A DNA stretch of 64,000 nt from contig NZ_CP060010.1 in assembly GCF_017798205.1 (NCBI RefSeq), positions 1,364,001 to 1,428,000 of the forward strand, read 5' to 3'. The first letter of the stretch is position 1. Each line of letters begins with the position of its first letter. Position numbers and translations under genes: made by a program. Of the stretch, positions 2,728 to 48,930 are shown one piece after another. The DNA comes from Cognatishimia activa (GTDB lineage Bacteria; Pseudomonadota; Alphaproteobacteria; Rhodobacterales; Rhodobacteraceae). The notes beneath the pieces are model-generated. The model saw only the letters and a list, made by a program, of their open reading frames with translations, was not told the origin of the DNA and did no database searches.

Positions 2728-3221
2728 TTTCTCAGCGCCAATTCCGGGTGGCCGGTCGCAAGCAAAACCGCACATCTGGGCAAGGAACAATGGCCATCGC
2801 ACCTACCGAATTGGACCTCCAGAATATCGATGCTTTTGCCAGCAAGATTTCGGAAGCCGTGTCGGTGTTGAAACAAGAGATTGCGGGTATCAACGACGGG
2901 CAACTCAATATCGTGAGTGAACTCTACAATCAGAAGGCCGGCATTCTGAAGTGGCTAGAGCTGAAAATGCCGCTGATTGAACCCTTTATGAACGACGATG
3001 CGGTCAAGGTCAGGCGCCTTCCCGACAGGCTTGCGGAACTCAAAGAGGCAGTGTCTGAAAACAACGCGCTTTTGTCACGTATGTCTGTCGCCGCAGGCAC
3101 CATCGTTCGTGAAATCGAGAAGGCCCAGAACAGGCACAGCCTGAACGGCCTTTATGGAAAATCCGGTCGTCGCATTGGCGCGGATAGCAGCCGATCGAGG
3201 GCTTTGGATAAGGAGCTGTAG
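2724..3221 (+). CDS. FlgN-like flagellar export chaperone
   Basis: A 165-residue, largely helical protein of the FlgN type, the cytosolic chaperone that protects hook-associated proteins FlgK and FlgL before export. The evidence is the helical Leu/Ile heptads between about 30 and 130, an ending NSLNGLYGKSG-like segment (HSLNGLYGKSGRR), size and position directly after flgJ. The start at 2724 overlaps the flgJ stop (ATGA) and is preceded by GGAGG. An internal ATG at 2790 preceded by AAGGA would remove a basic 22-residue leader and is a realistic alternative. FlgN proteins diverge strongly, so the assignment rests mainly on context. Confidence 0.6.
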   Translation: MISQRQFRVAGRKQNRTSGQGTMAIAPTELDLQNIDAFASKISEAVSVLKQEIAGINDGQLNIVSELYNQKAGILKWLELKMPLIEPFMNDDAVKVRRLPDRLAELKEAVSENNALLSRMSVAAGTIVREIEKAQNRHSLNGLYGKSGRRIGADSSRSRALDKEL

Positions 3222-3283
3222 CAGAGAAAATCAGGGAACCGTCTTACCTCTACGGGCCGTGAAGGTTTAAAAAAACGTAAACC

Positions 3284-3298
3284 TTAACCCCGCTTTAA
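3284..3298 (+). promoter_or_regulatory. CtrA-type box upstream of flagellin gene 1
   Basis: Perfect TTAA-CCCCGCT-TTAA (TTAA at 3284-3287 and 3295-3298), flanked by CC on both sides. It lies about 115 bases before the flagellin start and about 70 bases before the leader hairpin. The same arrangement, with one mismatch, recurs before flagellin gene 2. Confidence 0.6.
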
Positions 3299-3364
3299 CC
3301 AAAATTCTGTTAATCTACGAATGGTTGTACAGCCAGGCGTAGGTTTGGCATGTGCGATTGATAC

Positions 3365-3380
3365 TCTGTCAGAAGACGGA
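3365..3380 (+). promoter_or_regulatory. AGAA-loop hairpin in flagellin 1 leader
   Basis: Six-bp stem TCTGTC (3365-3370) / GACGGA (3375-3380), one pair being G-U, closed by C-G over the loop AGAA. It ends 31 nt before the start codon. A hairpin with the same loop and closing pair but different stem bases occurs at the same place in the other two flagellin leaders. It is a candidate post-transcriptional control site (FlbT/FlaF). Confidence 0.55.
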
Positions 3381-3411
3381 CTAAAAAATCGAGAATTGAG
3401 GAGAGCGTAAA

Positions 3412-4251
3412 ATGACGTCCATTCTCACGAATAACTCTGCAATGACGGCTCTACAGACCCTGACTATGGTCAATAAGAACCTGAACCAAACCCAAGGCCG
3501 CGTATCCAGCGGTCTCGCAATCAGCTCGGGTAAAGACAACGCCGCTTACTTTGCTATCTCCGAAACTATGAAGGGTGATAGCGGTATGTTTGATGCGATC
3601 AACGAGGGCCTGACATCTACCCGCAACTCAGTAGCGACAGCGCGCCTTGGCGCGGAAACCGTTTCTGATCTCGCACAGCAGTTCACCGAGCGCGTCGCGT
3701 TCGCACAGGGCTCTGGTGTGAATCTGGCAGATGTTCAGGCAGAACTTGATTCCATTGTGTCTCAAATCGGTACTGCCATCAGCCAGTCGACCTTCAACGG
3801 TGATGATCTGGTGTCTGGCGCTGCTGCGACACAAACCATCGTTTCCGGCGTATCCCGGACAGGTGGTTCTTTCGCGGCGACAACCATGACATTCGACTCC
3901 GTGAACCTCGGCGCGATCCAGACTGCTCTGGACGCAATTGATGTTGTAACTGCTGGTGCCACCAGTCAGGCTGCACTTCAGGCAACGCTGACGACCGCAG
4001 AGGCACAACTGGGCCTCGCAATCGACGCAGCGACGTCTTTGGGTGTCACAGAGAAATCCATCGAAGCACAACAGAGCTTCCTGGGTTCCCTGACCGACAC
4101 CCTGGATCAAGGTGTGTCCTCGATGGTTGATGCAGAGATGGAAGAGGAAGCAGCGCGTTTGCAAGCCCTTCAAACTCAACAACAGTTGGCGACTCAAGCA
4201 CTAGCAATGGCGAATTCTTCGCCTCAGTCCGTGTTGTCGCTCTTCCGTTAA
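3412..4251 (+). CDS. Flagellin, copy 1
   Basis: A 279-residue flagellin, the filament subunit exported through the flagellar secretion channel. It opens with the conserved SILTNNSAMTAL D0 segment and the RVSSGLAISSGKDNAAYFAI motif, and ends with helical LQTQQQLATQALAMANSSP and the terminal SLLFR-like VLSLFR. The middle is short (about residues 130-190), so the outer D2/D3 domains are essentially missing, as is common in alphaproteobacterial flagellins. It shares most residues with the two other copies at 4505 and 7042. It has its own CtrA-type box, leader hairpin and terminator, so it is a single-gene transcription unit. Ribosome site GAGGAG 9 nt upstream of ATG. Confidence 0.95.
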   Translation: MTSILTNNSAMTALQTLTMVNKNLNQTQGRVSSGLAISSGKDNAAYFAISETMKGDSGMFDAINEGLTSTRNSVATARLGAETVSDLAQQFTERVAFAQGSGVNLADVQAELDSIVSQIGTAISQSTFNGDDLVSGAAATQTIVSGVSRTGGSFAATTMTFDSVNLGAIQTALDAIDVVTAGATSQAALQATLTTAEAQLGLAIDAATSLGVTEKSIEAQQSFLGSLTDTLDQGVSSMVDAEMEEEAARLQALQTQQQLATQALAMANSSPQSVLSLFR

Positions 4252-4263
4252 GAGCAATAGAAG

Positions 4264-4297
4264 GGAAGCCGGGGGTCCTCGGCTTCCTTTTTTCTTT
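4264..4297 (+). terminator. Terminator of flagellin gene 1
   Basis: Stem GGAAGCCG (4264-4271) / CGGCTTCC (4280-4287) followed by TTTTTTCTTT. Confidence 0.9.
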
Positions 4298-4387
4298 AGC
4301 CGCACATTAAACAGTTTTAACACGCGGTTACCAATTCTCCCAAAAATTGTATTTTCTCAATGGGTTCGCTGAAAAGGCGGCAAATCC

Positions 4388-4402
4388 TAAACTTGGCTTT
4401 AA
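4388..4402 (+). promoter_or_regulatory. Degenerate CtrA-type box upstream of flagellin gene 2
   Basis: TAAA-CTTGGCT-TTAA, one base off TTAA-N7-TTAA. It aligns base for base with the perfect box before flagellin 1, including the shared GCTTTAACC end and the same distance to the start codon. A TTAA-N6-TTAA pair at 4307-4320 has the wrong spacing. Confidence 0.45.
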
Positions 4403-4458
4403 CCATGCCTCCCATATTCTTGTCAGACGCGTGCGGTGAGAAATCCGTGCGTGCCATA

Positions 4459-4474
4459 TCAGTCAGAAGACTGA
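4459..4474 (+). promoter_or_regulatory. AGAA-loop hairpin in flagellin 2 leader
   Basis: Perfect six-bp stem TCAGTC (4459-4464) / GACTGA (4469-4474) with loop AGAA (4465-4468), ending 30 nt before the start codon. Compared with leader 1, stem bases change while pairing is kept. Confidence 0.55.
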
Positions 4475-4504
4475 GACATAACGAGAATTAGAGGAGAACA
4501 TTAA

Positions 4505-5344
4505 ATGTCATCCATTCTCACCAATTCCTCTGCAATGGTCGCTCTTGCCACGCTTAACAACGTGAACATGAAGCTTAACGAAACCCAGAACCGTGTTTCC
4601 ACGGGTCTTCAGATCAGCTCTGGTAAAGACAACGCAGCCTACTTCGCGATTTCCGAAACCATGAAGGGCGACAGCGGCATGTTTGAGTCGATCAACGACG
4701 GCCTGACTTCCACCAAGAACTCCATCGCAACTGCACGCCTGGGCGCAGAAACTGTTGCAGACCTTGCTCAGCAGTTCACCGAACGTGTCGCCTTCGCACA
4801 AGGTTCCGGCGTGAACCTTACCGATGTACAGGCTGAACTGGATTCCTTGGTTTCTCAGATCGGCCTTGCGATCAGCCAATCGACCTTTAACGGTGAAGAT
4901 CTGGTCTCTGGCGCTGCGGCAACTGTGACTGTGGTATCGGGTGTTTCCCGTACCGGTGGTTCATTCTCCGCGACGACCCTCAGCTTTAGCTCTGTAAACT
5001 TGGGTGCAATTCAAACTGCATTGGATGCAGTTGACGTTGTGACGGCAGGTGCGACAAGCCAAGCCGCTTTGCAAGCGACTTTGGTGACCGCGGAAGGTCA
5101 ACTGTCAGCAGCGATCGACGCGGCAACGTCCTTGGGTGTTTCCGAAAAAACCGTCGAAGGTCAGCAGACATTCCTGAGCTCACTGACGGATACGCTTGAT
5201 TCCGGTGTTTCCTCTATGGTCGATGCGGATATGGAATCCGAGGCGGCGCGTCTGCAGGCACTTCAGGTTCAGCAGCAGCTGTCGACTCAATCGCTTTCCA
5301 TGGCGAACCAGACACCACAGAACATTCTGTCTCTGTTCCGGTAA
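4505..5344 (+). CDS. Flagellin, copy 2
   Basis: A 279-residue flagellin with the same architecture as copy 1: SILTNSSAMVALATL start, ISSGKDNAAYFAISETMKGD in the D1 region, short central part and a NQTPQNILSLFR end. It differs from copy 1 mainly in the central segment and the last 60 residues, and is closer to copy 3 at the C-terminus. AGAGGAGAA precedes the ATG. Flagellin multiplicity is usual in alphaproteobacteria and gives filaments built from several subunits. Control is probably by CtrA at transcription and by the leader hairpin afterwards. Confidence 0.95.
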   Translation: MSSILTNSSAMVALATLNNVNMKLNETQNRVSTGLQISSGKDNAAYFAISETMKGDSGMFESINDGLTSTKNSIATARLGAETVADLAQQFTERVAFAQGSGVNLTDVQAELDSLVSQIGLAISQSTFNGEDLVSGAAATVTVVSGVSRTGGSFSATTLSFSSVNLGAIQTALDAVDVVTAGATSQAALQATLVTAEGQLSAAIDAATSLGVSEKTVEGQQTFLSSLTDTLDSGVSSMVDADMESEAARLQALQVQQQLSTQSLSMANQTPQNILSLFR

Positions 5345-5387
5345 GTTCCTTTTAGGCCGTTTGGTCTTTGAATACCGAATGAAAAAA

Positions 5388-5411
5388 GCGGTCGCGCAAA
5401 TGCGCGGCCGT
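5388..5411 (-). terminator. Shared terminator between flagellin 2 and nagA
   Basis: Ten-bp hairpin GCGGTCGCGC (5388-5397) / GCGCGGCCGT (5402-5411) with two G-U pairs. Read on the minus strand it is followed by TTTTTTC, a good terminator for nagA; on the plus strand the tail is the weaker TTACTTTAT. Confidence 0.75.
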
Positions 5412-5416
5412 TTACT

Positions 5417-6616
5417 TTATGCCGACGGATTTTGTTTACGAACTTTCTTGCCACCGCGCCAAACACTGCGAAGCGCAAAGTCTGAAGACAAGTGTACGAA
5501 ATCAGCTGGCCCATTTTCGAACAAACGCCCCAATACTGATTTCCCAATTACATCCGCCGGATACTGAGTTGCCCGCTTCAGAGCGATTTCAACAGGCTCA
5601 CCGCACGTGGAAACCAAGAGTTTGATGGCGTCAGCCAAGGCCAAATGCGCGCCAGCTAAGGTTCCATCGGACAGGGTGAGGCGATCCCCCGATCTTAGGA
5701 TTTCGCGTCCGTTGAGTGTGAAAGACTCCAGGTCCGACCCGATCGTCGCCATAGCGTCAGTGACAAGGAATATCTCTCCGGGGCCTTTATTGGCGCGCAG
5801 AGCCAAACCAATCACCGCAGGATCAACATGAATACCGTCTGCAATGAGGCCGGCGTAAAAAGCGCCCGAAGACAACGCTGCGCCAACCGTCCCTGGCGCA
5901 CGTGCTGTCATCGGGCTCTGTGCGTTAAACAGATGGGTCACACAGTTGGCACCAGCTCTGGCATAGCGCAGACAGGTTTCGTAGTCTGCATCCGTATGAC
6001 CAATCGACACGACAACGCCTGCGTCCGTGAGGTCGCGAACCTGTTGTTCGGATGCATGTTCAGGGGCGAGGGTCACCTTTAGGACAGGGAGCGCTTTGGC
6101 GGCCCTTAGCAAAACCTTCATGTCTCGATCATTCATTGGCCGTACAAAAGACTCGCGATGCGCACCTCTGCGATTTGGCGCGATATGAGGACCTTCGAGG
6201 TGCAAACCAAGTACGCCCGGTATCCGCGCGGCGATTGCCTCCTCAACGGCAGCGATCGCTTGCGATGTTGTCTCTGGACTATCGGTGATCAACGTCGGAA
6301 GGAACGATGTCGTCCCCAAAACAGCATGCGCTTGGGACATCGTGGAGAGAGTTTCCACCGAAGGCGGGTTGTTAAACAACACGCCACCGCCCCCATTAAC
6401 CTGAAGATCAACAAAACCCGGTGCCAGAAAACCGCCATTCAACGCGATAGACGTGGTTTCTGCGGGAATTGCAGTGTCATCGACAAGGCATTTTACTTTG
6501 CTTTCCTCTATTAGAAGGGCTTTTCCTTTCTGAAGAGTGCCCTGCCAAAGGATGTCTGCACCCTTGAATGCTTTGGTTTTTGATTGTTCTTGGTTCAGCA
6601 AAGAAAGACGCTCCAA
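5417..6616 (-). CDS. nagA: N-acetylglucosamine-6-phosphate deacetylase
   Basis: A cytosolic amidohydrolase that removes acetate from GlcNAc-6-phosphate in amino-sugar or peptidoglycan recycling. The 399-residue sequence has the expected metal and substrate motifs: GFVDLQVNGGGG near the N-terminus, HLEGPHI with the metal-binding Glu, VSIGHTDAD, THLFNAQSPM, and the catalytic Asp in LVTDAMATIG. It is an isolated gene pointing against the flagellins and lying between the second and third copy. No partner such as nagB or a transporter is nearby. The position is odd: an insertion that separated duplicated flagellin genes is the simplest reading. Confidence 0.92.
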   Translation of the reverse strand: MERLSLLNQEQSKTKAFKGADILWQGTLQKGKALLIEESKVKCLVDDTAIPAETTSIALNGGFLAPGFVDLQVNGGGGVLFNNPPSVETLSTMSQAHAVLGTTSFLPTLITDSPETTSQAIAAVEEAIAARIPGVLGLHLEGPHIAPNRRGAHRESFVRPMNDRDMKVLLRAAKALPVLKVTLAPEHASEQQVRDLTDAGVVVSIGHTDADYETCLRYARAGANCVTHLFNAQSPMTARAPGTVGAALSSGAFYAGLIADGIHVDPAVIGLALRANKGPGEIFLVTDAMATIGSDLESFTLNGREILRSGDRLTLSDGTLAGAHLALADAIKLLVSTCGEPVEIALKRATQYPADVIGKSVLGRLFENGPADFVHLSSDFALRSVWRGGKKVRKQNPSA

Positions 6617-6731
6617 ATCGGTTTCGCGCTCATATTAGCAAGTTAGGCCTTGTTGCGGGGAAGCGATTTCTAAGTGGTGGAAGTACAACCTTAGCAGGAT
6701 TGGAAATGCTGCTAGGTTCTAAAAGTTGTGT

Positions 6732-6802
6732 AGTGGCGAGTATTTGGTAGAGCACAACGCTCGACGAAACCGGGGTTGGAACGTCAAAAGTCTTGAGCCA
6801 CT
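6732..6802 (+). other. Possible tRNA-Gly-like relic
   Basis: The stretch contains GGTAGAGCACAAC, identical to the D-arm/anticodon-stem start of many bacterial glycine tRNAs, and is bounded by AGTGGC (6732-6737) and GCCACT (6797-6802), which could pair at a tRNA-like 71-nt spacing. There is no proper T-loop (GTTCGA) and no CCA, so it cannot be a working tRNA. It could be a decayed tRNA fragment or chance. Confidence 0.2.
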
Positions 6803-7000
6803 CTGCACAAAAATGATGCATCAAAAGTGCAGCGCATGATGCGTCAGAGGATATCCTTATAATTGAGTAGGAAAACAAGGATACAATCTTTGCATTTAAC
6901 AACTTAAAGAAGAATTTCTTGGAATTTCTCAAAAACAGCAAGAACATATACCTTGCTTTAATCTTTTATTCTTTATAGTGACCTTATTAAAGAGAGTAAT

Positions 7001-7014
7001 GGTCCAGAAGGACC
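7001..7014 (+). promoter_or_regulatory. AGAA-loop hairpin in flagellin 3 leader
   Basis: Perfect five-bp stem GGTCC (7001-7005) / GGACC (7010-7014) with loop AGAA (7006-7009), ending 27 nt before the start codon. The loop and closing C-G pair match those of leaders 1 and 2 while the stem differs. Confidence 0.55.
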
Positions 7015-7041
7015 CTCGCCCGAAAGATAGGAGCGCAGGCA

Positions 7042-7884
7042 ATGTCGTCTATTCTTACAAACCATTCAGCCATGGTGGCTTTGTCCACGCTCAACATGGT
7101 CAACAAGAATCTGACCGACACGCAGAACCGCGTTTCAAGTGGTCTTCAGATCATGTCGGGCAAGGACAACGCTGCCTACTACGCCATCTCGGAAACGATG
7201 AAGGGCGACAGCGGCATGTTCGAGGCCATCCATGATGGCTTGACCGCGACCAAGAACTCGATTTCCACGGCGCGCCTTGGTGCCGAAACCGTAGCAGACC
7301 TCGCAAAGCAGTTTACCGACCGTGTTGCCTTTGCGCAGGGCAGCGGTGTTAACCTTGCTGATGTTCAAGCGGAACTGGACTCGCTGGTAACTCAAATCGG
7401 TACCGCGATCAGCCAATCCACGTTCAACGGAGAGGACCTCGTGTCGGGCGCTGCAGCGCCTGTGACAGTCGTTTCGGGTATTTCCCGCACAGGTGGCTCT
7501 TTCACAGCAACCACAATCACCTTCCAGTCCATTGATCTGGGTGCAATCCAGACCGCGTTAGACGCAATCGATATTGTTACCGCAGGCGCAACTAGCCAAG
7601 CAGCTCTTCAGGCGACGCTGGCAACCGCTGAGGCGCAGCTTTCCAATGCGATTGACGCGGCGACTTCGATGGGCGTCACTGAAAAGACCATCGAAGGTCA
7701 GATGTCATTCCTTGATATGCTCACCGATACGCTGGACTCAGGTGTTTCAGCGATGGTTGATGCGAATATGGAAGCCGAGGCGGCCCGCTTGCAGGCGCTT
7801 CAGGTTCAACAACAGCTGGCGACACAATCACTCTCTATGGCCAACCAAGCGCCACAGAACATCATGTCGCTGTTCAGGCAATAA
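7042..7884 (+). CDS. Flagellin, copy 3
   Basis: A 280-residue flagellin very similar to the other two: SILTNHSAMVALSTL start, IMSGKDNAAYYAISETMKG, short central part, and NQAPQNIMSLFRQ end (one extra Gln). Ribosome site TAGGAG lies 9 nt upstream. Its upstream region lacks the TTAA-N7-TTAA box seen before copies 1 and 2 and instead carries TACCTTGCTTTAATC, so its transcription may be governed differently. The leader hairpin is kept. Followed by its own terminator. Confidence 0.95.
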   Translation: MSSILTNHSAMVALSTLNMVNKNLTDTQNRVSSGLQIMSGKDNAAYYAISETMKGDSGMFEAIHDGLTATKNSISTARLGAETVADLAKQFTDRVAFAQGSGVNLADVQAELDSLVTQIGTAISQSTFNGEDLVSGAAAPVTVVSGISRTGGSFTATTITFQSIDLGAIQTALDAIDIVTAGATSQAALQATLATAEAQLSNAIDAATSMGVTEKTIEGQMSFLDMLTDTLDSGVSAMVDANMEAEAARLQALQVQQQLATQSLSMANQAPQNIMSLFRQ

Positions 7885-9387: not shown

Positions 9388-9414
9388 CATTGATAACTCT
9401 CTCGGAGTCTACCT

Positions 9415-9765
9415 ATGAATACAGAGGCTACTAATCTTTTTGATCTTGCGTCTAAGCGTCTGAAATGGCTCTCAGACAGCCAAAAAACGATCTCTGAAAA
9501 CATCGCAAACGCCGAGACATCCGGATATCGCGCGAAAGAAGCGCAAAGCTTTGAGAGTTACTTATCGCGCGCAGAAGGTGCTGAAATTGCACCTGATGCG
9601 ACTTCAGCGGAAAGCGACGTGACATGGGGCGAAGATTTGACGGGGAACTCTGTTGTCCTCGAAGAGCAGATCCTTGCAGCTTCCAGCACGGCAAGTCAGT
9701 ACAAGATCGCAGCTAATCTCTACAAGAAAGCGCACTCGATGTTGCGCGCTGTGGCAGGGGGCTAA
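9415..9765 (+). CDS. flgB: FlgB, proximal rod protein
   Basis: A 116-residue rod subunit that assembles on FliE in the periplasm. It carries the rod/hook-family N-terminal motif (QKTISENIANAETSGYRAKE) and a C-terminal amphipathic helix (ASQYKIAANLYKKAHSMLR). First gene of a tight operon flgB-flgC-fliE-fliQ-sltF-flhA-fliR-flhB; only 3 bases separate it from flgC. Confidence 0.93.
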   Translation: MNTEATNLFDLASKRLKWLSDSQKTISENIANAETSGYRAKEAQSFESYLSRAEGAEIAPDATSAESDVTWGEDLTGNSVVLEEQILAASSTASQYKIAANLYKKAHSMLRAVAGG

Positions 9766-15728: not shown

Positions 15729-16841
15729 ATGAAAATCACCCGTATCCGCGTTTTCAAAACGCCCTTGCCCTATGTCGACGGCGCCTATGCCTGGGGTGCG
15801 GGGAACGCCATCGAGGTCGCTATGGCTTCGGTCGTGGTCATCGACACAGACGCAGGGCTACAAGGCTGCGGGGAATTCACGCCTTGTGGCGAGAACTATA
15901 TGGTCGCGCATTCCGAAGGCGTCGAGGCCCTCGCGAAATTGGTGGCACGTAAACTGTTGGGTGAAGACCCACGGCAACTCGGCCGGATCGAGCAAATTCT
16001 GGATCACACAGTGCAGGGCCACGGCTACGCCAAAGCGCCTTTTGATGCAGCTTGCTGGGACATTTTGGGCAAGGCCACGAACCAACCTGTCTGGATGCTG
16101 CTTGGAGGAAAACTTACGGATGGCGCTCCGATGTATCGAGTCGCTCCCCAGCGCTCGACCGAGGAAACCATTGCCGAACTCGACCGTCACCGCGCAGCAG
16201 GCTATCGCCAGTTTCAGATCAAAGTCGGCGCGGATTGGCAGACGGACATTGATCGCATTCGCCAAACCGTCCCCTTGCTGAAACCCGGCGAAAAAGCCAT
16301 GGCGGATGCAAATCAAGGCTGGCGTGTGGACAACGCGATCCGATTGGCGCGTGCCACCAAGGATCTTGATTTCATTCTAGAGCAGCCCTGCCGCACCTAT
16401 GAAGAATGCCAGCAAGTGCGACGCGTGGCCGAACAGCCGATGAAGCTCGATGAATGCCTCACGGGGATGAACGCAGCCCAAAGGATCGTCGCGGATCGCG
16501 GGGCGGAAATCTGTTGCCTCAAAATCTCAAACCTCGGCGGCCTCAGCAAAGCCCGCCGCGTGCGCGATTTCCTGATCGACAATCGCATTCCCGTCATCAG
16601 TGAAGATACTTGGGGCGGGGAGATCACATCCTCGGTTGTGGCCCATTTCGCGGCCTCGACGCCTGAAGAGTATCTGCAGAACACGACAGACCTGATGAAC
16701 TACAACACCCGCTCGACGGGCATCGGCGGGCCGATATCCAAAGACGGTAAACTCTATGCCACCGACACGCCCGGCCTTGGCGTCACCCCTGATTTCGCAA
16801 GCCTAGGTGCCGCGGTCTTTGACACCGGAGAGACAGCATGA
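15729..16841 (+). CDS. Enolase-superfamily (MR/MLE) enzyme, cis-3-hydroxyproline dehydratase-like
   Basis: A 370-residue mandelate racemase/muconate lactonizing family protein. Visible active-site residues: Lys165 in FQIKVG (the first Lys of the usual KxK is Gln), metal ligands Asp193 (MADANQGW), Glu219 (ILEQPC) and Asp241 (KLDEC), and the second base Lys265 (CLKISNLGG). Two opposed lysines with this Q-x-K variant fit cis-3-hydroxy-L-proline dehydratases or hydroxyproline-betaine epimerases; the true substrate is unknown. It is translationally coupled (ATGA) to a second, homologous gene. Neither is flagellar, so a new functional block begins here. Confidence 0.75.
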   Translation: MKITRIRVFKTPLPYVDGAYAWGAGNAIEVAMASVVVIDTDAGLQGCGEFTPCGENYMVAHSEGVEALAKLVARKLLGEDPRQLGRIEQILDHTVQGHGYAKAPFDAACWDILGKATNQPVWMLLGGKLTDGAPMYRVAPQRSTEETIAELDRHRAAGYRQFQIKVGADWQTDIDRIRQTVPLLKPGEKAMADANQGWRVDNAIRLARATKDLDFILEQPCRTYEECQQVRRVAEQPMKLDECLTGMNAAQRIVADRGAEICCLKISNLGGLSKARRVRDFLIDNRIPVISEDTWGGEITSSVVAHFAASTPEEYLQNTTDLMNYNTRSTGIGGPISKDGKLYATDTPGLGVTPDFASLGAAVFDTGETA

Positions 16842-32054: not shown

Positions 32055-32453
32055 TCACTCCATGACGTGCATCGGGTTGCCTTCGAGTCCGCGAATGATG
32101 CTGCGGTTCACGTCCAGCAACGGTTTCACCGTTTTCTGTCCTTTCAGGACTTCGTTGGTGTGATTCTCAACCCAAAGCGACAGTGAAATCAAGCCCGCAC
32201 GCAGGTCTGGTGCCAATGCGTTGCCGGGGTTGATCAGATCGCTGCGGATCGTTTGCCAAATGCGTTGATTGTAAGAGAGCGTATCGCGCAATCCCTCAGA
32301 GAGGATCTTGAGTTTGTCTACGGCCTTCTCTGCCCCGTCGAACTCTTGCGAGCGCAATTCCATTTCGGCGGTGACATTCGAGAACACACGCCGTTCGATC
32401 TGCCGCGGATTTTCAGTTTCGGTGATGGTCCGCTTGTATGCAGTTATGCTCAT
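32055..32453 (-). CDS. flaF: FlaF, flagellin regulator/secretion chaperone
   Basis: A 132-residue helical protein with the FlaF features SITAYKRTITETENPRQIERRVFS and LRAGLISLSLWVENHTNEVL. FlaF works with FlbT and in Caulobacter is needed for flagellin synthesis and secretion. First gene of the flaF-flbT-DUF1217 operon. A perfect CtrA-type box lies 64 bases upstream of its start. Confidence 0.92.
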   Translation of the reverse strand: MSITAYKRTITETENPRQIERRVFSNVTAEMELRSQEFDGAEKAVDKLKILSEGLRDTLSYNQRIWQTIRSDLINPGNALAPDLRAGLISLSLWVENHTNEVLKGQKTVKPLLDVNRSIIRGLEGNPMHVME

Positions 32454-32767
32454 AAAGGTTTATCCAGTTTTTTTGTTATGTGGTCTGCCTCACATGAATA
32501 GAGTACCTGAGGTTGTTTAAAGCCAGTTTAATCCTTCATGGCAATTTAAGGATTATCTGCCATTTATTTACCTTTGTTTCACTTTTGGCACCACAGTGTT
32601 GCTCAACTGGGGGCTATTTGCCCCAGTTTAGCCACGTTTCGCCACTTTTCCGTCAAACTGCGTCAATAAAACGGTTTTTCAGGGATATGGCGCTTTCTGC
32701 TCTTGGCGTCAGTGAAAGAATTCACGCACGACATTCCCTTTTAGGTTGAATGACGAGGATGTAGGCA
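32454..32767. other. 314-base spacer between divergent flaF and the receiver gene
   Basis: No gene seen. It is AT-rich near flaF and holds the CtrA-type box at 32517-32531. A GGGGCTATTTGCCCC hairpin lies around 32611-32625. The receiver gene's ribosome site (GAGGATGTAGGCA) is at the right end. Confidence 0.6.
32517..32531 (-). promoter_or_regulatory. CtrA-type box upstream of flaF
   Basis: Perfect TTAA-AGCCAGT-TTAA. It is 64 bases from the flaF start and 237 from the oppositely oriented receiver gene, so flaF-flbT control is the more likely role. Confidence 0.6.
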
Positions 32768-47415: not shown

Positions 47416-48930
47416 ATGCTTGAAGGTATTCTCTTAGGCTTGTCGACGGCCCTGTCGATGCAAAACATTCTGATGGTGATTGGTGGCTGTCTGATCGGCA
47501 CATTCATCGGCATGTTGCCGGGGCTTGGCCCCATGTCGATCATCGCGATCATGATCCCTGTGGCGATCACAATCGGAGACCCATCTACCGCACTGATCCT
47601 TTTGGCGGGTGTCTACTATGGCGCGATCTTTGGGGGCTCGACTTCGTCGATCCTGCTGAACGCGCCGGGCGTTGCTGGCACCGTGGCGACCAGTTTCGAT
47701 GGCTATCCCATGGCGCGCAAAGGCAAAGCGGGCAAAGCGCTGACGATTGCGGCGATTGCGTCTTTCGCGGGCGGTACCATTGGCGCGATCCTCTTGATGG
47801 TTTTCGCGCCGATGCTCTCGACGGTCGCGCTCTTGTTCCACTCGGCAGAGTATTTTGCCCTGATGATCGTCGGCCTTTCAGCCATCGCAGCCTTTGCGGG
47901 CACGGGGCAGGTGTCAAAGGCTCTGTTGATGACCGTACTGGGTCTGATCATGGCCACCGTGGGCGAAACCGCGCAGTTCAACGCGCCGCGCTTCACAATG
48001 GGGTTGATGGACCTGCAATCAGGCTTTGGTTTTATCACGCTGGCCATGGCGATGTTTGCTTTGCCCGAGGCGCTTTATCTGGTGCTGAAACCCTCGCGAT
48101 CCGAGCAGGGCAGCAGTGGCGAGATCAAAGACCTGCGGATCACGCGCGATGAGGCGAAAAAGATCACGCCGGTCATTGGCCGCCAGTCGATCCAAGGTTT
48201 CTTCATTGGGGTTCTGCCCGGTGCGGGGGCGACGATTGCGTCTTTCCTCGGCTATGCGGTGGAACGCAACATCGCGCCTGCAGAGGAACAGAAAGAGTTC
48301 GGCGACGGTTCTGTCAAAGGTCTTGCCGCGCCGGAAACTGCCAACAACGCGGCTTGTACAGGGTCGTTTGTGCCCTTGCTGACACTCGGCATTCCGGGTT
48401 CGGGGACGACGGCGATTTTGCTGGGCGCTTTGATTGCGCTGAACGTCACACCGGGCCCGCGCCTGATGGTCGATGATCCTCAGATCTTCTGGTCTGTCAT
48501 CATCTCGATGTATATCGGCAACGTGGTTCTGTTGATCCTGAACCTGCCGCTGATCCCTTACATCGCCAAAATCCTGGCCGTGCCGCGGAACTTCCTGATC
48601 CCGTTTATCCTCTTCTTTACTTTGATGGGGGCCTATATCGGGCAGAACAACGCGACCGAGCTGTTGATCCTTGTGGCCTTCGGCATCTGCGCGACGATCT
48701 TCAAGTTCGCGGATTACCCGCTGGCACCGCTGCTCATTGGCTTCATTCTGGGCACCATGCTCGAGGACAACTTCGCGCGCTCGATGAACCTTTATGATGG
48801 TGCGAGCTTTGTCTGGGATCGTCCGATGACGCTGGGCCTCTTAGTGATTTCGGTTCTGCTGGTGGTCTTCCCAAGCTATCGCGCACGGCGTGCCAAAGCG
48901 CGGGCGGCTGGGATCGCTGATGGCGACTAA
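47416..48930 (+). CDS. tctA: TctA, large membrane subunit
   Basis: A 504-residue permease with about twelve helices. Family motifs are plain: GTFIGMLPGLGPMSIIAIMIP, YYGAIFGGSTSSILLNAPG and GVLPGAGATIASFLGYAVE, PLLTLGIPGSGTTAILLGA. It transports the substrate captured by TctC, driven by a cation gradient. Its end overlaps the probable CoA-transferase start by 11 nt. Confidence 0.95.
   Translation: MLEGILLGLSTALSMQNILMVIGGCLIGTFIGMLPGLGPMSIIAIMIPVAITIGDPSTALILLAGVYYGAIFGGSTSSILLNAPGVAGTVATSFDGYPMARKGKAGKALTIAAIASFAGGTIGAILLMVFAPMLSTVALLFHSAEYFALMIVGLSAIAAFAGTGQVSKALLMTVLGLIMATVGETAQFNAPRFTMGLMDLQSGFGFITLAMAMFALPEALYLVLKPSRSEQGSSGEIKDLRITRDEAKKITPVIGRQSIQGFFIGVLPGAGATIASFLGYAVERNIAPAEEQKEFGDGSVKGLAAPETANNAACTGSFVPLLTLGIPGSGTTAILLGALIALNVTPGPRLMVDDPQIFWSVIISMYIGNVVLLILNLPLIPYIAKILAVPRNFLIPFILFFTLMGAYIGQNNATELLILVAFGICATIFKFADYPLAPLLIGFILGTMLEDNFARSMNLYDGASFVWDRPMTLGLLVISVLLVVFPSYRARRAKARAAGIADGD

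Follow-up and report, generated by a model that had tools for sequence, protein, structure and literature searches.

A CARAA-loop hairpin in flagellin mRNA leaders of Rhodobacteraceae and other Alphaproteobacteria, a probable translational operator for FlbT

The 64,000-nucleotide stretch of the Cognatishimia activa genome analyzed here (hereafter the window) carries three flagellin genes and, on the opposite strand, flaF and flbT, and the messenger RNA (mRNA) leader of each flagellin contains a small hairpin with the loop AGAA. The initial annotation had described these three hairpins as sharing the loop and a closing C-G pair while differing in their stems, with 31, 30 and 27 nucleotides (nt) to the start codon; they were read directly from the sequence and recomputed, and every one of these particulars proved correct. 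Pfam searches likewise bore out that the three downstream open reading frames (ORFs) encode flagellins and that FlbT and FlaF are both encoded in the window. The features concerned are the following:

3365..3380, + strand: flagellin 1 leader hairpin TCTGTC-AGAA-GACGGA; 6 pairs, one of them G-U; 31 nt from its end to the ATG at 3412
3398..3405, + strand: Shine-Dalgarno-like GAGGAGAG of flagellin 1, located 3' of the hairpin and outside it (read from the sequence)
3412..4251, + strand: flagellin 1, 279 amino acids (aa); PF00669, PF00700
4459..4474, + strand: flagellin 2 leader hairpin TCAGTC-AGAA-GACTGA; 6 pairs; 30 nt from its end to the ATG at 4505
4491..4496, + strand: Shine-Dalgarno-like GAGGAG of flagellin 2 (read from the sequence)
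4505..5344, + strand: flagellin 2, 279 aa; PF00669, PF00700
7001..7014, + strand: flagellin 3 leader hairpin GGTCC-AGAA-GGACC; 5 pairs; 27 nt from its end to the ATG at 7042
7029..7033, + strand: Shine-Dalgarno-like AGGAG of flagellin 3 (read from the sequence)
7042..7884, + strand: flagellin 3, 280 aa; PF00669, PF00700
30781..31608, - strand: DUF1217 gene directly downstream of flbT; PF06748
31620..32051, - strand: flbT, TTG start, its product the proposed reader of the hairpin; PF07378, 107.4 bits; AlphaFold 2 (AF2) model
32055..32453, - strand: flaF, its product a chaperone for flagellin secretion, judged from the Caulobacter relative (PMC7591256); PF07309

The source genome has a fourth PF00669 match, located outside the window.

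The hexamer CAGAAG occurs 26 times on the + strand of the window and 20 times on the - strand, and at four sites, all on the + strand, it lies within a stem of at least 5 pairs; three of these four are the flagellin leaders. For all comparisons below, a strict hairpin was defined as C-ARAA-N?-G with a stem of at least 3 pairs. Each window flagellin leader holds one such hairpin (3/3, vs 0.11 expected from dinucleotide shuffles), and in leaders 1 and 2, folded alone, it is present in both the minimum free energy (MFE) and the centroid structure.

Flagellins were found by search in 97 of 120 genomes, source genome included, and 69 Rhodobacteraceae leaders were taken from 60 of the 96 other matched genomes, best-scoring matches first. 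The initial annotation had made its proposal depend on conservation of the loop in related genomes, and this conservation was found: the strict hairpin is present in 55 of the 69 leaders vs 2.9 expected from shuffles, with 1/69 in the control region from -300 to -170 and 2/69 on the antisense strand. The usual design is GTC-AGAAN-GAC or a relative of it, placed in long leaders about 60-85 nt before the ATG and in the short-type leaders (n=19, including the leader of flagellin 2 of the window) ending at -27 to -35. Short leaders belong to the flagellins closest to those of the window; the tetraloop AGAA is found in the window and its nearest relatives, and the pentaloop AGAAN in most others. 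Thirteen further leaders came from FlbT-positive genomes with a low-scoring FlbT, like that of the window, plus a genome of the same genus, and 12 of them contain a clear GTC-AGAA(N)-GA(C/U) hairpin, with only a variant in the remaining one (G488).

An alignment of 62 leaders revealed, in the long Rhodobacteraceae leaders (L009-L074), two extra hairpins, H2 and H3, downstream of the AGAAN hairpin (H1). H3 adjoins the ribosome site and frequently has an A-rich loop of the GGCGCAAAGCGCC type; the RNAalifold consensus of the same alignment retained only H1 and part of H3. Two genomes (G092 and G088; leaders L007, L067, L016, L068 and L072) have two flaF and two flbT genes together with short and long leaders, all of which contain the hairpin, and this doubling possibly reflects two flagellar systems of the kind reported in PMC12363192. 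In another multi-flagellin genome, one paralog (L042, G086:C1:329062) lacks the strict hairpin and could be an FljJ-like regulatory flagellin of Rhodobacterales.

Outside Rhodobacteraceae, 78 of the 114 non-window matches were used (late-starting and most weak matches were excluded), and G134, a Rhodobacteraceae member, was dropped from the counts. In FlbT-positive Alphaproteobacteria, 23 of 66 leaders have the strict hairpin (2.2 expected; 1/64 in the -300 to -170 control and 2/66 antisense), frequently in tandem and sometimes overlapping the Shine-Dalgarno sequence (tccAGAATgga). Among FlbT-negative leaders the count is 1/11, with 0.3 expected and 1/11 in the -300 to -170 control. Counted per genome, the strict hairpin occurs in 16/27 FlbT-positive vs 1/8 FlbT-negative genomes (Fisher p 0.041, ignoring kinship), a comparison that covers 27 of 40 FlbT-positive and 8 of 12 FlbT-negative genomes and omits the flagellin-bearing FlbT-negative G141, G195, G233 and G238.

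The signal is strongest in Caulobacterales, for which 78 named loci were obtained by a search with the FljK protein sequence; one leader (L201) was too short, leaving 77. The strict hairpin was found in 70 of these 77 leaders, some of which are near-identical (3.0 expected; antisense 1/77), and 61 have more than one. In the fljK leader of C. vibrioides, the two stems are gtgggc-AAAAT-gcccac, ending at -48, and gtc-AAAAT-gac, ending at -32; the MFE fold contains both, plus one extra pair inside the loop. Compared with the window hairpin, the start-proximal fljK hairpin has a single changed loop letter and a loop longer by one base; its distance from the AUG is equal, and Caulobacter hairpins end mostly at -28 to -32. 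In Caulobacter, as in other genera, the same hairpin design thus precedes flagellins with an identity of about 40-60%.

Not all Caulobacter flagellins carry this arrangement. FlbT has been reported to interact with FljJ and not with other flagellins, the FlbT-FljJ combination repressing the five others, and FljJ to be 49% identical to the other Caulobacter flagellins (PMC7591256). In the present analysis, flagellins found with phmmer were labelled FljJ-like when they had the N-terminal motif SVNTNQPAL and 47-51% identity to FljK (listed for eight of 24). Among the loci L153-L212, structural flagellins have at least two strict hairpins in 76 of 85 distinct leaders and one in the other 9, whereas none of the 23 distinct FljJ-like leaders has two, three have one and 20 have none. 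Since the pair stands on the structural and not on the FljJ-like leaders, it marks the flagellins that FlbT represses, not the one that is made first.

Changes in the stems are compensated. At CARAA sites in leaders, a stem of at least 3 pairs is formed in 69/106 cases in Rhodobacteraceae, 33/65 in the FlbT-positive class set and 132/152 in Caulobacterales, compared with 34/356 over the whole window. Covariation was assessed against 1000 shuffles on distinct sites picked by the loop letters CARAA and a G facing them across five loop bases. Pairing at stem positions 2, 3 and 4 exceeded all 1000 shuffles in each of the three taxon sets: in the window plus Rhodobacteraceae these positions are paired in 55, 62 and 49 of 74 sites (shuffle maxima 50, 60 and 42), in the class set in 41, 30 and 28 of 43 (30, 25 and 24) and in Caulobacterales in 94, 87 and 70 of 96 (58, 75 and 56). 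Position 5 reaches the shuffle maximum in Caulobacterales only, and position 6 in no set. In an alignment of 53 hairpins, 79% of cells pair vs 24-47% in slid controls; selection of these hairpins for pairing biases the figure at the three inner pairs. Selection on RNA structure, originally proposed from the three window leaders, is therefore supported far beyond them by the spread, the covariation and this alignment.

The distribution of the two proteins is nearly the same, FlaF and FlbT each being present in 226 of 296 Rhodobacteraceae genomes; by eye, only two genomes distinguish the lists, G058 with FlaF alone and G054 with FlbT alone. At the G058 locus (L251), flaF is directly followed by the DUF1217 gene, so that flbT is missing precisely between them, while a flagellin is retained. 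FlbT was not found by Pfam in this genome, nor was a hidden Markov model match or an FlbT-like reading frame found at the locus, and its flagellin leader contains no CARAA. It is one natural deletion that agrees with FlbT as the reader.

The flagellin leaders examined carry an RNA element that is associated with FlbT control. Anderson and Gober reportedly described in 2000 the binding of FlbT to a Caulobacter flagellin leader, for which fljK was used. FlbT is stated to bind the 5' untranslated region of Caulobacter flagellin transcripts in work cited by PMC3930126 and PMC4347634. Because a hairpin of the same design is present in Caulobacter, where FlbT is reported to bind flagellin mRNA, the window hairpin is very probably the handle with which FlbT restrains production of filament protein until this is required, and we consider it likely, on comparative sequence evidence, that the element acts in cis on flagellin mRNA as a translational operator, with FlbT as its reader. 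The initial annotation had left the reader as FlbT and/or FlaF; the first part of this proposal is strongly favoured by the indirect evidence of the Caulobacter leaders, the FljJ contrast and G058, and FlaF as the reader is not supported, as a 2020 paper (PMC7591256) describes it as the chaperone of flagellin secretion and G058 keeps it without the hairpin.

The likeness to the fljK-type leaders of Caulobacter extends to a flagellin leader with a C-ARAA-type loop hairpin, to its placement (-27 to -31 in the window vs -32 in fljK) and to the presence of flbT and flaF. The window differs in having one strict hairpin instead of two, which was treated as a variant feature, in its tetraloop AGAA, which is one base shorter than AAAAT, and in that no clearly divergent FljJ-like flagellin is present among its three flagellins.

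The most likely mechanism is as follows. The short stem would present a loop A-(A/G)-A-A, optionally extended by one nucleotide and closed by C-G, and FlbT, probably together with a flagellin co-repressor, would bind this loop. The 30S ribosomal subunit sits close to the place of the hairpin, just upstream of the Shine-Dalgarno sequence. As the hairpin lies 27-31 nt before the AUG, near this position, bound FlbT would hinder ribosome entry or initiation, and it could also promote mRNA decay. Once the hook is finished, export of flagellin through it, assisted by FlaF, would take the co-repressor away and lift the block. That FlbT binds, that initiation is blocked and that secretion brings release is inferred, partly from work on Caulobacter, and the coupling to hook completion, as the initial annotation had it, would rest on the Caulobacter literature.

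Several observations weigh against this interpretation. Leader 3 of the window, folded alone, adopts another fold, and its MFE structure does not include the hairpin. The strict hairpin is lacking in 14 of the 69 Rhodobacteraceae leaders (near variants such as GGTCAGAACGCC were seen by eye in several of them) and in 43 of the 66 FlbT-positive leaders outside this family. The Fisher value given above is uncorrected for kinship and derives from a subset of genomes. When the closing pair is left free, matches are enriched not only in FlbT-positive leaders (38/66, shuffle mean 11.4) but also in FlbT-negative ones (6/11, shuffle mean 1.4), so discrimination requires the strict form, and relaxed loop closure was for this reason dropped as a definition of the element; the subset of these matches close to the Shine-Dalgarno sequence comprises 17/66 FlbT-positive (shuffle mean 1.8) vs 0/11 FlbT-negative leaders (0.3). 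As many as 11 of the 23 FljJ-like leaders have an ARAA-loop hairpin with another closure near the start codon. In Brucella, FlbT has been described as an activator (PMC4347634 among the sources).

Genomes without flbT, which the initial annotation had proposed to search for the hairpin, gave a divided answer. There is none in G058 or in G032, which is without FlbT and FlhA; on the opposite side, G056, where FlhA was found and FlbT and FlaF were not, has a 4-pair AGAAC hairpin, and the hairpin is kept in G083 (2 of 3 flagellin leaders) and G027, where FlbT was not found. In the latter two, the contig breaks off inside the flagellin gene or shortly past it, so flaF-flbT may be unassembled there. 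Outside Rhodobacteraceae, G139, in which FlbT, FlaF and FlhA were not found, has the hairpin in one of two leaders.

The element is also hard to recover by search. A covariance model (R1) built from 53 pentaloop hairpins, none of them from the window, ranked two of the window hairpins 14th and 18th of 33 matches and missed the third. On 13 loci that had not gone into the model, six of its seven best matches were pentaloop leader hairpins, and no tetraloop leader was recovered at E <=1. The pattern GTCAGAAN?GAC has 20 matches in the source genome vs 13 for the reversed control, two of them flagellin leaders, and the ORFs downstream of four other matches did not look flagellar in translations judged by eye, no family search having been made. 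A single hairpin is too small for genome-wide detection and needs its leader context, which likewise tells against the proposal.

The best-surviving alternative is that the hairpin serves structure or stability, as protection of the 5' end or as a site for RNase E/III or a cold-shock protein, and is not read by FlbT. It agrees with the hairpins in G056, G083 and G027, and with the observation, made by eye with the sigma-54 promoter consensus, that the Caulobacter hairpin follows soon after a sigma-54-like promoter and hence lies near the 5' end. Such a role would need no fixed loop, yet CARAA sites keep pairing while the stem letters change; moreover, FljJ-like genes of the same clusters are without the pair, and hairpin and flbT are both missing in G058. 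We regard this explanation as improbable, although the least so of those considered. Reading by FlaF in place of FlbT would fit the nearly exceptionless co-inheritance of the two proteins, whose distribution hardly separates them, but G058 keeps FlaF and is without both FlbT and the hairpin, and FlaF is reported as a secretion chaperone binding all six Caulobacter flagellins (PMC7591256), which makes this very unlikely.

Even slighter are the chances of a DNA element, such as one bound by a transcription regulator. In its favour, operators are commonly inverted repeats, flagellin 1 has a CtrA-type site upstream, and the + strand of 3200-7060 yielded no sigma-70-like promoter; the element is nevertheless strand-specific (the antisense counts given above, with 0/3 in the window), lies at a distance from the start codon that is fixed in short-type and Caulobacter leaders, and has stems that covary around a kept loop. 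That the three hairpins are gene-duplication copies kept by descent only, as the 82% and 84% identity of flagellins 1 and 3, respectively, to flagellin 2 and the GTCAGAAGAC common to leaders 1 and 2 could suggest, is scarcely credible, because the stems have diverged without losing their pairing, that of leader 3 is another one altogether, and the spread of the design to distant flagellins and its covariation contradict it.

The AF2 model of FlbT (mean predicted local distance difference test, pLDDT, 85) has five short N-terminal strands followed by a helical domain. Sequence searches found no solved relatives of FlbT or FlaF, and Foldseek with the FlbT model gave nothing significant. In VIA-align, entries of the flagellin chaperone FliS occupied ranks 1-4 (Z 8.3 to 7.8), the best being 5maw_E (Z 8.3, root-mean-square deviation 1.9 over 79), and FliS or flagellar chaperones accounted for 8 of the top 27 rows; unrelated bundles were tied within Z 1, and Z <13 is common for helical bundles. 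The modelled helical domain may weakly resemble FliS.

The five strands and the consensus start LKLSLKPGEKF prompted the idea that FlbT is a relative of CsrA, which was dropped. In 29 FlbT proteins there was no Pfam match to PF02599 (CsrA) at E up to 10; hhalign gave FlbT-CsrA probabilities of 0.7, 0.3 and 0.5%, and an equal or higher score was reached by 57 of 200 column-shuffled CsrA decoys. CsrA was absent from the Foldseek and VIA rows for the full and the N-terminal FlbT models, which does not prove that the folds differ. No PF02599 protein was found in the source genome (G000), nor in 19 of the 21 Alphaproteobacteria examined, this one included.

The CsrA system nevertheless offers a functional parallel. 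CsrA/RsmA sites on flagellin mRNA are hairpins with purine-rich loops near the ribosome site, under feedback from flagellin export. The window differs from the CsrA/RsmA-FliW sites of Bacillus and Campylobacter in that the loop is AGAA in all three hairpins, with no GGA. A 2016 paper had remarked that a system analogous to CsrA-FliW might have evolved with FlaF and FlbT. The present results suggest that CsrA-FliW and FlbT-FlaF reached one plan, in which flagellin export governs repressors that read loops on flagellin mRNA. A wider proposal, which we put forward tentatively and hold to be somewhat less probable than its opposite, is that of a class-wide operator of 1-3 C-ARAA(N)-G hairpins, sometimes over the Shine-Dalgarno sequence, that would be recognized by a two-part repressor whose beta domain reads the loops and whose FliS-like domain senses flagellin; this would be an independent counterpart of CsrA-FliW-flagellin, and FljJ-type flagellins would escape it by lacking the pair.

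Cis-regulatory leaders of such size are usual content of Rfam. Release 15 gave no match over the window hairpins (there were sub-threshold matches elsewhere), and at E <=0.1 on 31 other flagellin loci there were two matches, both outside the leaders. The loop motif is not described in the titles and abstract openings of the open-access literature searched. A 2015 review lists no RNA motif for FlbT and treats its mechanism as unresolved (PMC4347634). Since the original Caulobacter papers may describe the fljK stems, the claim to novelty is limited to a class-wide, testable definition of the element; the action of FlbT on flagellin leaders was already known. FlbT has been called a regulator of flagellin mRNA for more than 20 years, and the small, well-defined loop at a constant position offers a directly mutable target. 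The hairpin pair also provides a rule that predicts which flagellins escape control (the FljJ-like ones), and the hairpin could represent an RNA family in many flagellated Alphaproteobacteria.

Sites of the form TTAA-N7-TTAA, the CtrA consensus, occur three times in the window vs 0.07 expected:

1173-1187: CtrA-type site upstream of the FlgI gene (ATG at 1229)
3284..3298, + strand: CtrA-type site upstream of the flagellin 1 hairpin
32517..32531, + strand: CtrA-type site ahead of flaF-flbT (genes on the - strand)

Other observations concern the surroundings. A strict C-ARAA hairpin match at 9390-9442 (- strand), about 52 nt upstream of the start of the FliI ATPase gene, may be due to chance. 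A sub-threshold Rfam match to the alphaproteobacterial small RNA (sRNA) ar35 at 4173-4293 lies where flagellin 1 ends, at its terminator-like stem, and a strong one (118 bits) to the Ruegeria Cis8 sRNA (RF02646) lies at 48454-48581 (- strand), distant from the flagellins. Finally, an enolase-superfamily (mandelate racemase-like) gene is situated at 15729-16841, amid the flagellar gene region.

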